From Prescottella sp. R16 (lineage in GTDB: Bacteria; Actinomycetota; Actinomycetes; Mycobacteriales; Mycobacteriaceae), in the NCBI RefSeq assembly GCF_030656875.1, contig NZ_CP130943.1:4092001-4156000 (forward strand): a stretch of 64,000 nucleotides of DNA. Direction: 5' to 3'. Positions 5,609 through 64,000 of the stretch are shown here, in pieces. The notes under the pieces are model-generated. The model did not search any database, was not told where the DNA came from, and was given only the letters and a program-made list of their open reading frames with translations. Position 1 is the stretch's first letter. Each line of letters begins with the position of its first letter. The translations under genes were made by a program, and so were the position numbers.

Positions 5609-6256
5609 TCAGGCCAGAGGTGCGTCCGTCGCAGCCCGCACCTGGGCCTCGGTCACCCCGGGCGCGCATTCGCGCAGCACCAGCCCGGTCGTCGTCACGT
5701 CGATGACGGCAAGGTCGGTGACGATGCGGTGGACCACCGCCCGCCCGGTCAGCGGGAGGGTGCAGTGTTCGACGATCTTGGCGGCCCCGGTCTTGTCGGT
5801 GTGTTCCATGAGCACGACGACCCGCCGGGCACCGTGCACCAGATCCATGGCACCGCCCATGCCCTTGACCATCTTGCCCGGCACCATCCAGTTGGCCAGG
5901 TCCCCGGCCGCGGAGACCTGCATGCCACCGAGGACCGCGGTGTCGATGTGGCCACCACGGATCATGCCGAACGACAACGCCGAATCGAAGAACGCCGCCC
6001 CCGGGTTCACCGTCACCGTTTCCTTGCCGGCGTTGATCAGGTCCGGATCGACCGCATCCTCGCTCGGGTAGGGGCCGGTGCCCAGGATGCCGTTCTCACT
6101 GTGCAGCGTGACCTCGACGCCTTCGGGGAGGTGGTTCGGAATCAGGGTGGGCAGGCCGATTCCGAGGTTGACGTATTCACCGGACGCGAGTTCCTGTGCG
6201 GCGCGCGCCGCCATCTGCTCGCGCGTCCACCCGGTCGTCTCGATCAGTGCGGTCAT
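5609..6256 (-). CDS. scoB: 3-oxoacid CoA-transferase subunit B
   Basis: The 215-residue beta subunit of a class I CoA-transferase. It carries the catalytic glutamate in SENGILG (Glu54), which forms the glutamyl-CoA thioester, plus the G-I-G-L-P-T and [14 protein letters not shown] motifs. With subunit A it moves CoA from a donor such as succinyl-CoA to a 3-oxoacid, either acetoacetate (ScoAB) or 3-oxoadipate (PcaIJ/CatIJ). The families are hard to separate by eye. Its ATG overlaps the stop of subunit A by four bases. The nearby beta-keto acid cleavage enzyme, which releases acetoacetate, favours an acetoacetate role. Confidence 0.9.
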
Positions 6257-62306: not shown

Positions 62307-62831
62307 TCAGCCCGCGGACGGGGTCTCGAGCACCGAGACGACCGGCGTCGGGTTACGGGTCAGGTCCAGCACCGGGCAGTGCGTCTCGGCGGCCGCGTGC
62401 AGTTCCAGGTAGCGCTCCCGTGATTCCGGGCCGGTGACGGTCACGACGACACGCACCTCCCCGAAGCCGGGACGCACAGCGTCGTCGAACCCGAAGAAGC
62501 CACGGACGTCGAGGTCGCCCTCGGCGCGGGCCTTGATGTCGTCGACCCGGATGCCGAGGCGCTCGGCCCAGAACCGGTAGGTCACCACGTGGCAGGACAG
62601 CAGCGACGCCAGGTAGTACTCGACGGGGTTGGGGGCGGTGTTGTCACCACCGAGGGCCGGCGGCTCGTCGACCTCGATCGCGTACTTGCCCAGCGAGACG
62701 GTGCTGGCGACCGCGTCGTGCGCCCGGGCCGAGGCCCGGAAGACGACGTGCGCCTTGCCGGCGTCCTGCGCCACCGCATCGGCGGTGGCGGAGACGACGG
62801 CGGAGAGACGGGAGACGGAAGCTGTGGTCAT
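62307..62831 (-). CDS. OsmC family peroxide-stress protein
   Basis: A 174-residue OsmC/Ohr-superfamily protein. Both redox cysteines are present, Cys80 in ASLLSCHVVTYRFWAERLG and Cys152 in AAAETHCPVLDL. The middle is GGDNTAPNPVEYYL, the family motif near the dimer interface. Such proteins reduce organic hydroperoxides. AGGG lies seven bases before the ATG. A leaderless cysteine-rich ORF and a hairpin lie in its 5' region, so its expression may depend on cysteine supply, which would link thiol status to a thiol-dependent peroxidase. Confidence 0.9.
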   Translation of the reverse strand: MTTASVSRLSAVVSATADAVAQDAGKAHVVFRASARAHDAVASTVSLGKYAIEVDEPPALGGDNTAPNPVEYYLASLLSCHVVTYRFWAERLGIRVDDIKARAEGDLDVRGFFGFDDAVRPGFGEVRVVVTVTGPESRERYLELHAAAETHCPVLDLTRNPTPVVSVLETPSAG

Positions 62832-62860
62832 GAGAGAACCCTGTCGTTCGTGTGGGGATT

Positions 62861-62882
62861 CCGGGCAGGAGGAACTGCCCGG
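62861..62882 (-). promoter_or_regulatory. Attenuator-like hairpin between leader ORF and osmC
   Basis: A perfect eight-pair stem (CCGGGCAG / CTGCCCGG on the transcribed strand) with a 6-base loop, 27 bases after the leader stop and 29 bases before the osmC ATG. There is no T tract. Its position fits a structure controlled by ribosome stalling upstream. Confidence 0.55.
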
Positions 62883-62909
62883 CGAAATGGTCGTCGGGGC
62901 CGATCGGGG

Positions 62910-63002
62910 TCAGCGACAACCGCAGGTACACACGAGCGCGAAATCGACGTGGCGACGCCGCGTCAGCAGCGCCCCTGAGTCGATCGCGCGAGGTTCGGTC
63001 AC
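62910..63002 (-). CDS. Leaderless cysteine-rich leader peptide
   Basis: A 30-codon ORF starting GTG ACC and ending with Cys-Thr-Cys-Gly-Cys-Arg before TGA. The LLTRRRHVDFA core is the signature of actinobacterial sulfur-linked leader peptides (RRRHVD or RRYVDL followed by cysteines near the end). A TACAGT -10 lies six bases before the GTG, so translation starts at the first base of the mRNA and needs no ribosome site. Ribosomes slowed at the three clustered Cys codons would sit next to the hairpin at 62861-62882 and alter osmC expression. Cysteine-responsive attenuation by polycysteine leaderless ORFs is known in mycobacteria; its use here is inferred. Confidence 0.75.
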   Translation of the reverse strand: MTEPRAIDSGALLTRRRHVDFALVCTCGCR

Positions 63003-63008
63003 GCCGAG

Positions 63009-63014
63009 ACTGTA
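63009..63014 (-). promoter_or_regulatory. -10 element of the leader peptide/osmC transcript
   Basis: TACAGT on the minus strand, six bases before the GTG of the leader ORF and 16 bases downstream of the corA stop. It fits the T-A-n-n-n-T consensus and a leaderless start. Confidence 0.6.
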
Positions 63015-63029
63015 GCCCGTCGCCGCCCC

Positions 63030-64000
63030 CTACAACCAGCCGCGCCGCTTGAAGACGGTGTGGAGACCGAAGCAGGTGAGGAACATCAGCGTCAGCGCGA
63101 ACGGGTAGCCACCCGCCCAGTGCAGTTCGGGCATGATGTCGAAGTTCATGCCGTACACGGTGCCGATGAGGGTGGGGGCGAACAGGATTGCGGCCCACGA
63201 CGAGATCTTCTTGATCTCCTCGTTCTGCGCCAGGCTGGCCTGTGTGAGGTTGCGCATCTCCTCGTTCTGCGCCTGCGATACGAGGGTGGCGTTGACGGTG
63301 AGGATGTTGGCGAGCAGTGCCCGGAATCCGTCGACGCGTTCGACGACGGTGGTGGCGTGGTCGGTGACGTCGCGCAGGTATTTCTGCAGCTCCGCGTCGG
63401 TCTGGTATTTGTCGAAGCCTGCCGACAGCGCCCGCAGCATCCCCAGCAGCGGCTTGGTGGCGCGCTGGAATTCGATGACCTCACGGGAGAGTTCGTAGAT
63501 ACGTCGCGACACCCTCGGATCGCCGCTGAACACTTCGGTCTCGATCTCGTCGATGTCGTTCTGCAGCCCGGCGACGACGGGTGCGTAGCCGTCGACGACG
63601 GCGTCGAGGATCGCGTACAGCACGGCTTCGGGGCCGAGTTGCAGCAGCTCCGGCTCGTGCTCCATGCGCGTGCGCACGTTCGACAGGTCCGGTGACTCGC
63701 TGTGCCGGACGGTGAGCACGAACGTGGGGCCGCAGAAGATGTGCAGCTCCCCGAAGTCGACGGATTCGGATTCGTCGAGGTAGCGGGCGGCGCGCAGCAC
63801 CACGAACAGGGTGTCGCCGTAGCGTTCCAGTTTGGGCCGCTGGTGTGCGACGATCGCGTCCTCGACGGCGAGCTCGTGGAGGTCCAATTGTTTTGCGGCG
63901 GCATGTAGTTGAGCGTCGTCGGGGCGGTACAGCCCGATCCACGCCATGGACGACGGATCGGGCAGGCTCGCGAGGGCGTCCGCCAGGGTCGTGGGCGACG
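63030..64000 (-). CDS. corA: CorA family magnesium/cobalt transporter, 5' end beyond the window
   Basis: At least 323 residues of a CorA channel, running off the right edge without a convincing start. The N-terminal cytoplasmic domain shows WIGLYRPDDAQLHAAAKQLDLHELAVEDAIVAHQRPKLERYGDTLFVVLRAARY. A long coiled stalk follows (DIDEIETEVFSGDPRVSRRIYELSREVIEFQRATKPLLGML). The pore carries the diagnostic YGMNF before the last two helices (WAAILFAPTLIGTVYGMNF, FALTLMFLTCFGLHTVF). It ends in a basic RRGWL tail. An ATG at 63947 is too far inside the family pattern to be the true start, since the upstream frame is open and keeps CorA-like content. Confidence 0.92.
   Translation of the reverse strand, partial: SPTTLADALASLPDPSSMAWIGLYRPDDAQLHAAAKQLDLHELAVEDAIVAHQRPKLERYGDTLFVVLRAARYLDESESVDFGELHIFCGPTFVLTVRHSESPDLSNVRTRMEHEPELLQLGPEAVLYAILDAVVDGYAPVVAGLQNDIDEIETEVFSGDPRVSRRIYELSREVIEFQRATKPLLGMLRALSAGFDKYQTDAELQKYLRDVTDHATTVVERVDGFRALLANILTVNATLVSQAQNEEMRNLTQASLAQNEEIKKISSWAAILFAPTLIGTVYGMNFDIMPELHWAGGYPFALTLMFLTCFGLHTVFKRRGWL

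Follow-up and report, generated by a model that had tools for sequence, protein, structure and literature searches.

The osmC gene in the window (the whole 64,000-nucleotide stretch of Prescottella sp. R16 DNA that was analyzed) was preceded by a short leader open reading frame (ORF) ending in Cys codons, and this leader is real and conserved before osmC across rhodococci. A cysteine-responsive translational attenuator was the best explanation for the leader and is, in our judgment, probably correct. In predicted folds, the Cys codons formed a helix with the 5′ edge of the osmC ribosome-binding site, and this helix is likely to be the switch.

All of the elements described here are on the minus strand. 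The putative leaderless-type promoter has a -10 box, TACAGT, at 63014-63009, six bases before the GTG start of the leader ORF MTEPRAIDSGALLTRRRHVDFALVCTCGCR (63002-62910). This ORF consists of 30 codons plus a TGA stop and contains the motif RRRHVDF; codons 25, 27, and 29 of the 30 are Cys codons (TGT at 62930-62928, TGC at 62924-62922, and TGT at 62918-62916, together the segment 62916..62930). Between the leader and osmC is a perfect 8-bp hairpin, P3 (CCGGGCAG-TTCCTC-CTGCCCGG, 62882-62861). The osmC gene (62307..62831, ATG at 62831) codes for an OsmC-like protein (PF02566) of 174 amino acids, and a Shine-Dalgarno-like CAGGG, read from the sequence, is located at 62843-62839 (-12 to -8). Thus, each element named in the original prediction (TACAGT, the GTG six bases on, the 30 codons, RRRHVDF, the three Cys codons, the 8-bp hairpin, and osmC) was found in place. 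A consensus scan found no sigma-70 -35/-10 pair at the leader promoter, and no Rfam family reached its gathering score in the window.

The corA gene lies upstream of the leader, with its stop codon at 63030, and osmC stands alone, followed by genes for an ATP-dependent DNA ligase and a LigD-type primase-polymerase. The neighborhood was compared in 16 Prescottella-group loci, which partly represent the same species. All 16 had corA upstream, and in 11 the ligase gene was directly behind osmC. The ligase gene was about 2 kb further on in two loci (L006 and L014). It was not found in the 1.5 kb past osmC that the stretches of L168, L169, and L172 cover.

To describe how widely the leader occurs, we start with the genus of the window. 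Among its 14 genomes, osmC and the leader were both present in 11 of the 11 that carried osmC, and the other three had neither. Among the best 80 of 91 loci encoding an OsmC relative, an RRR[H/T][V/I]D leader preceded osmC in 16, which belong to Rhodococcus and Prescottella or, in the case of L010, to a metagenome genome. The 350 bases scanned contained no leader in the Mycobacterium-group, Gordonia, Nocardia, Williamsia, and Tomitella loci of this set, nor in three Rhodococcus loci (R. zopfii, R. phenolicus, and strain HM1). On the OsmC tree, the leader label needed 5 changes, compared with an average of 15.6 for shuffled labels, and well-supported branches forced at least two changes.

A sample of 401 genomes from the family was searched with a degenerate DNA pattern for LLTRRRH[VI]DFA, allowing up to 3 mismatches. 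The pattern matched 40 genomes, once in each, and the reversed control pattern gave 3 matches; this excess indicated that the leader was more than a chance occurrence. Thirty-five of the 40 matches had 0 or 1 mismatch, and 31 of these 35 were located 76 to 152 nt before an intact osmC. The other five genomes, each matched with 3 mismatches, lacked osmC in the 3-kb loci examined. Genus g4 was missed by the strict pattern, but a diverged RRR[T/V][I/V]D leader preceded osmC in all 19 of its osmC-bearing genomes in the family sample. The leader was also found before osmC in genera g155 (2 of 2), g160 (2 of 5), and g151 (1 of 1), whereas none of the 11 loci that were fetched from g2, g3, g147, g149, and g152, a subset of those with osmC, had it. 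Overall, similar leaders preceded osmC in six sampled rhodococcal-type genera. Of the 394 genomes sampled across the class, 14 gave a match at E 1e-20, and only 3 of these were outside the family.

Two further loci were observed in these searches. Of the 14 class-sample loci other than that of the window, one (L195, from another actinobacterial family) contains an RRRHID ORF that bears one Cys codon and ends in a stop overlapping the probable osmC start (ATGTCTGA). L200, from genus g2, has an RRRHVD leader (MTGHTALTRRRHVDFGRVTRAACPPPHDG) with no osmC behind it.

The leader peptides were compared in 40 rows, including L245 and L247, which are repeat records of L015 and L018. Three R residues and the D of the motif, as well as the last Cys, were invariant in all 40 rows, and the first Cys codon was kept in 37. 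The original prediction of a leaderless-type RRRHVD peptide with Cys codons, conserved before osmC, was therefore supported, including on one of the points that it had named as able to refute it, since the Cys codons next to osmC are retained in relatives. The leaders of relatives have one to three Cys codons, which mostly stand apart; most have two non-adjacent ones, and L010 has one. In the 11 Prescottella-group leaders, codons with a single difference were synonymous in 262 cases and non-synonymous in 120, and the differences at the three codon positions numbered 159, 189, and 335. These counts cover the first 29 codons in all 55 pairs of leaders, and the pairs are not independent.

A TANNNT box was located 6 to 7 nt before an in-frame ATG or GTG in 21 of 21 osmC leaders and 7 nt before the start in 19 of 19 g4 leaders, as determined with scripts that searched for such a start among the in-frame candidates.

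Three NCBIfam models align with the window leader through the RRRHVD core and the C-terminal Cys: NF042936 (Ms4527A), NF042934 (cis_reg_atten), and NF042933 (Ms5788A). However, the osmC leaders differ from the members of these models in scoring under the cut-offs. The best match of the window leader was NF042936 (E 1.5e-5), for which it scored 24.5 bits (cut-off 45); it reached 15.9 bits for NF042934 (cut-off 27) and 13 bits for NF042933 (cut-off 45). Five other osmC leaders that were tested also fell below every leader cut-off, and the R. ruber type leader missed that of NF042934 by 0.1 bit (26.9 of 27). Because the Cys codons of the window leader are set apart (VCTCGC) and form no run of adjacent codons, we did not class it as a polycysteine member, but by analogy it may work like one.

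In the proposed mechanism, RNA polymerase would start at or beside the GTG codon, so that a ribosome would load at the 5′ end of the mRNA and read the leader. With enough Cys-tRNA, the ribosome would complete the leader and depart. The Cys-codon segment could then pair just 5′ of the osmC Shine-Dalgarno sequence to form helix P1, with P2 and P3 enclosed, and little osmC would be translated. A shortage of cysteine would make the ribosome stall on the Cys codons and so block P1, and osmC would be translated. The start of transcription, translation of the leader, and stalling are parts that we infer, and the cysteine response and its direction are drawn by analogy from the leader class, as represented in PMC4633059 and PMC13236596.

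When the window leader mRNA was folded from its start codon, three helices were predicted: P1, P2, and P3. The 5′ strand of P1 (CGTGTG, 62929..62934) spans the Val codon region and reaches two bases into the first Cys codon, and the 3′ strand (CACACG, 62849..62854) lies at -23 to -18 of osmC, adjoining the 5′ side of the Shine-Dalgarno sequence. The mean pair probability of P1 was 0.99. P2 is a hairpin (62889..62921) in which the last Cys codon and the stop, both in the 5′ arm, pair with the bases that follow.

The computed cost of opening the region from -26 to +3 of osmC in the window was 12.2 kcal/mol in the free mRNA, 8.3 kcal/mol with a ribosome on the first Cys codon, and 6.8 kcal/mol with a ribosome on the last; one of 30 shuffles equaled the release at the last Cys codon. 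With the ribosome on the last Cys codon, this region was easier to open in 19 of 21 leaders, and the effect went beyond nearly all shuffles in 9 of the 21; for stalling at the first Cys codon, the latter figure was 6 of the 21. Two leaders, L014 and L024, lost on stalling at the last Cys codon (-1.9 and -1.7, respectively). The region had been picked after the folds were viewed, so the test with 21 leaders was not blind; a test with held-out leaders was. The held-out set contained 26 leaders, 19 of them osmC leaders and all of the latter from genus g4; L015 and L018 of the first set come from this genus as well. Three of the osmC leaders were excluded: L242, whose start was mis-set and which, as run, did not gain over shuffles, and two repeats, of which L245 likewise did not gain over shuffles and L247 did. 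All of the other 16 osmC leaders gained, by 2.7 to 9.9 kcal/mol, and for 9 of the 16 at most 4% of shuffles were as good. A significant gain at the last Cys codon was seen in 0 of 7 other leaders, namely, six metY leaders and the sulfite reductase leader of the window's genome; one of the metY leaders (L016) gained at the first Cys codon only.

Masking of the Shine-Dalgarno sequence alone was rejected as the switch, since the narrower region from -15 to +3 showed no release and only the wider site responded. In the window, opening this narrower region cost 6.2 kcal/mol without a ribosome and 8.0 kcal/mol with a ribosome on the first Cys codon, and the native gap left the site more open than most shuffles did. 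The narrower region was worse by at least 1 kcal/mol in 7 of the 21 leaders and better in 5; this run used mis-set osmC starts for L011 and L053.

The Cys-to-stop segment paired with the ribosome-binding region in 33 of 37 osmC leaders (46% in gap shuffles), and this pairing ran through a Cys codon in 29 of the 37 (35% in gap shuffles). Twelve g4 leaders pair with the Shine-Dalgarno sequence itself; because the shuffles leave this sequence intact, they cannot serve as a control for these leaders. For the other 25 leaders, the helix was found in 21 and ran through a Cys codon in 17, and the corresponding shuffle figures, which are sums over the per-leader rows, were 28% and 14%. A qualifying helix was absent in L014, L017, L018, and L024, and the helix made no contact with a Cys codon in L006, L015, L169, and L251. 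The position of the helix was similar among lineages and the pairing sequences varied: CGTGTG:CACACG in the window, TGGGTG:CACCCA and GTGCGG:CCGCAC elsewhere, and TCCTGTTCG:CGAACAGGA in g4. The leaders in these comparisons are related sequences and are not independent. Folding z-scores for the region from the Cys codons to the osmC start were significant in some loci only; the value was -2.14 for the window and ranged from -4.61 to +1.13 over 21 leaders, including L011 and L053 with their mis-set starts. An RNAalifold consensus over all leaders was uninformative because the gap does not align.

The original prediction had assigned the role of attenuator hairpin to P3. In the sense of a terminator, this assignment was not supported: P3 does not look like one, and the helix of interest is instead P1, which links the Cys codons to the 5′ edge of the osmC ribosome-binding site. 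An intrinsic terminator after the 8-bp hairpin was rejected because a scan of 62780-63100 found 0 terminator-like sites. Transcription attenuation, in which P3 would terminate transcription before osmC unless a stalled ribosome altered the fold, is improbable. It would draw on the P3-like hairpins that were predicted in several other leaders (e.g., L002, L004, L005, and L007-L011) and on the T-rich sequence behind the hairpin in some Rhodococcus loci (L007, L008, and L010), but P3 in the window has no T-run behind it, and none of the folds that were made contained an alternative that breaks P3. Moreover, L015, L017, L018, and L024, with gaps of 41 to 44 nt, had no second P3-like hairpin.

The invariance of the peptide raised a different reading, in which the nascent RRR[H/T][V/I]D would be a tunnel arrest peptide that senses something else, such as redox state, with the Cys codons as part of the arrest motif. 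A mere gauge of cysteine supply would not need RRRHVD, and the R, R, R, and D residues and the last Cys persist in every row, even though the Cys codons drop to two or one. However, the helix involves the Cys codons at the codon level, and mycobacterial Cys-rich leaders are reported to be cysteine responsive (so cited in PMC13236596); we regard arrest of this kind as a poor prospect. The translational attenuator described above remained the preferred reading.

The product of osmC matched PF02566 with 72.8 bits (cut-off 27.5), and C80 and C152 were invariant in all 81 homologues aligned. Its nearest solved relative by sequence was 2opl (E 6.4e-19), and its score against NF041052 was 85.5 of 95 bits, below the cut-off. 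OsmC-family proteins are commonly annotated as peroxide reductases, on the basis of tests of few members. The original prediction had explained the link to cysteine by the need of such chemistry for thiols. In many rhodococci, however, osmC directly precedes metY, so osmC may simply be part of sulfur assimilation, and we replaced the thiol-based reason with this simpler tie.

The metY gene encodes a bifunctional O-acetylhomoserine/O-acetylserine sulfhydrylase (NF005872, 872.7 bits, cut-off 703). It followed osmC within 3 kb in 14 of the best 80 of 91 loci: 9 of the 16 loci with a leader and 5 without one (three R. zopfii-group loci, Williamsia, and Nocardia veterana). In genus g156, metY was behind the leader in 15 of the 15 leader loci fetched, counting those with a broken or missing osmC. 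In g4, a metY homologue with 46 to 50% identity was behind osmC in 13 of 13 fetched genomes. Of seven other fetched genomes (from g155, g3, g2, and g149), one, from g3, had metY behind osmC. In the genome of the window, metY (85% identical) is located elsewhere, and the Prescottella leader is associated only with osmC. The R. ruber and R. zopfii groups carry another Cys leader, of the MCICGC type, in the interval between osmC and metY. A leaderless-type Cys leader in this position (VSNTRVRLTGRPSVRRRAHYMCICGCSGR and kin) was observed in L012, L013, L016, L017, and L024; the one tested, that of L012, matched no NCBIfam model at E 1.

These arrangements raised the question of which gene the leader serves. 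The selected target of the cysteine sensor could be metY, with osmC carried along in a leader-osmC-metY operon and the Prescottella leader before osmC a relic. Four g156 genomes among the 35 with a close leader match fit this idea, since the leader and metY persist there without a sound osmC: osmC is absent in L229, is a 19-amino-acid stub in L231, and has an internal deletion in L224 and L230. In the L229 genome, metY is directly behind the leader, and an osmC located elsewhere (L232) has no leader. Against this, all 11 leader-bearing genomes in the genus of the window retain the leader's reading frame, Cys codons, and box, with no metY within the stretches examined, and the leader is missing from the three genus genomes that lack osmC. 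In addition, osmC in R. ruber and R. aetherivorans keeps its leader even though metY has its own second Cys leader, and two g155 genomes and R. maanshanensis (L053) keep leader and osmC with no metY in the 2.5 to 3 kb behind. We consider it unlikely that metY is the selected target and the Prescottella leader a relic.

The module occurs as leader-osmC-metY, leader-osmC-leader-metY, osmC-leader-metY, leader-metY, and leader-osmC. These forms suggested that the osmC leader is no mere relic of metY control and that a role for OsmC in sulfur is likely. With the same kind of leader before the osmC-metY pair in many rhodococci, OsmC probably serves sulfur assimilation. More tentatively, we suggest that this OsmC clade is a sulfur-assimilation enzyme and not (or not mainly) a peroxide scavenger. 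It might act beside O-acetylhomoserine sulfhydrylase, perhaps by handling persulfides or sulfide-carrying thiols, and be induced by cysteine shortage through its own leader; rhodococci would then have split and re-wired the leader-osmC-metY module.

Other Cys leaders were found in the genome of the window. The sulfite reductase leader ARRHVDLKRVCSCCCLPCGA scored above the NF042936 cut-off, and the Cys leader MLTRRRAVDLCRLGGCCCPCC precedes DUF4395 and rhodanese genes. At L183 (contig 1, 283984-284040), a Cys leader (LTRRLHLDLVRVAGAACCRFTMR / VTRSFLTRRLHLDLVRVAGAACCRFTMR) that scored above the NF042934 cut-off precedes an SCO4226-like gene (PF14026), which is followed by a second gene without a Pfam match. 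A genome-wide search for RRH[VIML]D gave 86 matches on both strands, compared with 28 for the reversed control. Eighty-four of the matches (30 loci and 52 stretches) were inspected; a stop codon occurred within 45 codons in eleven rows, two of which are the same place, and the sulfite reductase leader was the only one with a convincing Cys end. The remaining two matches are in the window: the osmC leader and a match at window position 5690 in an open frame without a nearby stop.

In the same genome, a SAM-IV riboswitch (120.4 bits) is followed by a Shine-Dalgarno-led micro-ORF, MMCCCRR, and then by metY (L269/L274, contig 1, about 3429518-3429773). All 14 genus genomes had a DNA match to the riboswitch region followed by a 6- to 7-codon ORF with two or three Cys codons (e.g., MCCCRR, MCSCHE, and MCCSHH); five were inspected by eye, and Rfam was run on the genome of the window only. 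At this locus, homocysteine synthase may be under the control of two inputs, SAM and cysteine.

The closest known counterparts are in mycobacteria. In work by Canestrari et al. from 2020, mycobacterial polycysteine leaders are said to be cysteine responsive, with a stalled ribosome that frees the ribosome-binding site. Polycysteine leaderless short ORFs were first seen by Shell et al. in 2015 (PMC4633059), the mechanism of mycobacterial Cys leaders has been termed translation attenuation (PMC13236596), and six regulatory Cys-rich short ORFs are given for M. tuberculosis in PMC9094748. The osmC leaders share with the mycobacterial polycysteine ORFs C-terminal Cys codons, a probable leaderless-type start, and, where metY is behind osmC, a sulfur-metabolic gene downstream. 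They differ in their target, which is osmC or osmC-metY, and in the spacing of their two or three Cys codons, most of which stand apart (CTCGC, CTSGC, or CTSSC) instead of forming a run; osmC is outside the three loci (cysA2, Rv0485, and nirA) in Fig. 7 of PMC4633059. The amino-acid leaders of Streptomyces lividans (PMC8079986) are likewise leaderless, and several lack a T-run terminator. However, these leaders serve other amino acids, such as that of MetNIQ, which ends in GARCMCRRMCAF and was called methionine dependent by the authors, and osmC is unmentioned in the available portion of that paper.

The literature searched, which covered few subscription journals, contained no report, judging by titles and the openings of abstracts, of a cysteine or RRHVD leader before osmC or of OsmC being tied to O-acetylhomoserine. 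It did include papers on Ohr/OhrR and sulfane sulfur, and two in which OsmC and sulfane sulfur came up with a single occurrence each. The osmC leader is thus a conserved addition to the Cys-leader class, with a target not found reported in that literature. This leader family escapes current annotation models, and it brings further genes, in addition to those that the available portions of the cited work name, under likely control by ribosomes in response to cysteine. The presence of one kind of leader on osmC, metY, or both provides an example of the evolutionary re-wiring of a sensor. For one OsmC clade, the leader before osmC and the adjacency of osmC and metY point to a concrete, testable role in sulfur metabolism.
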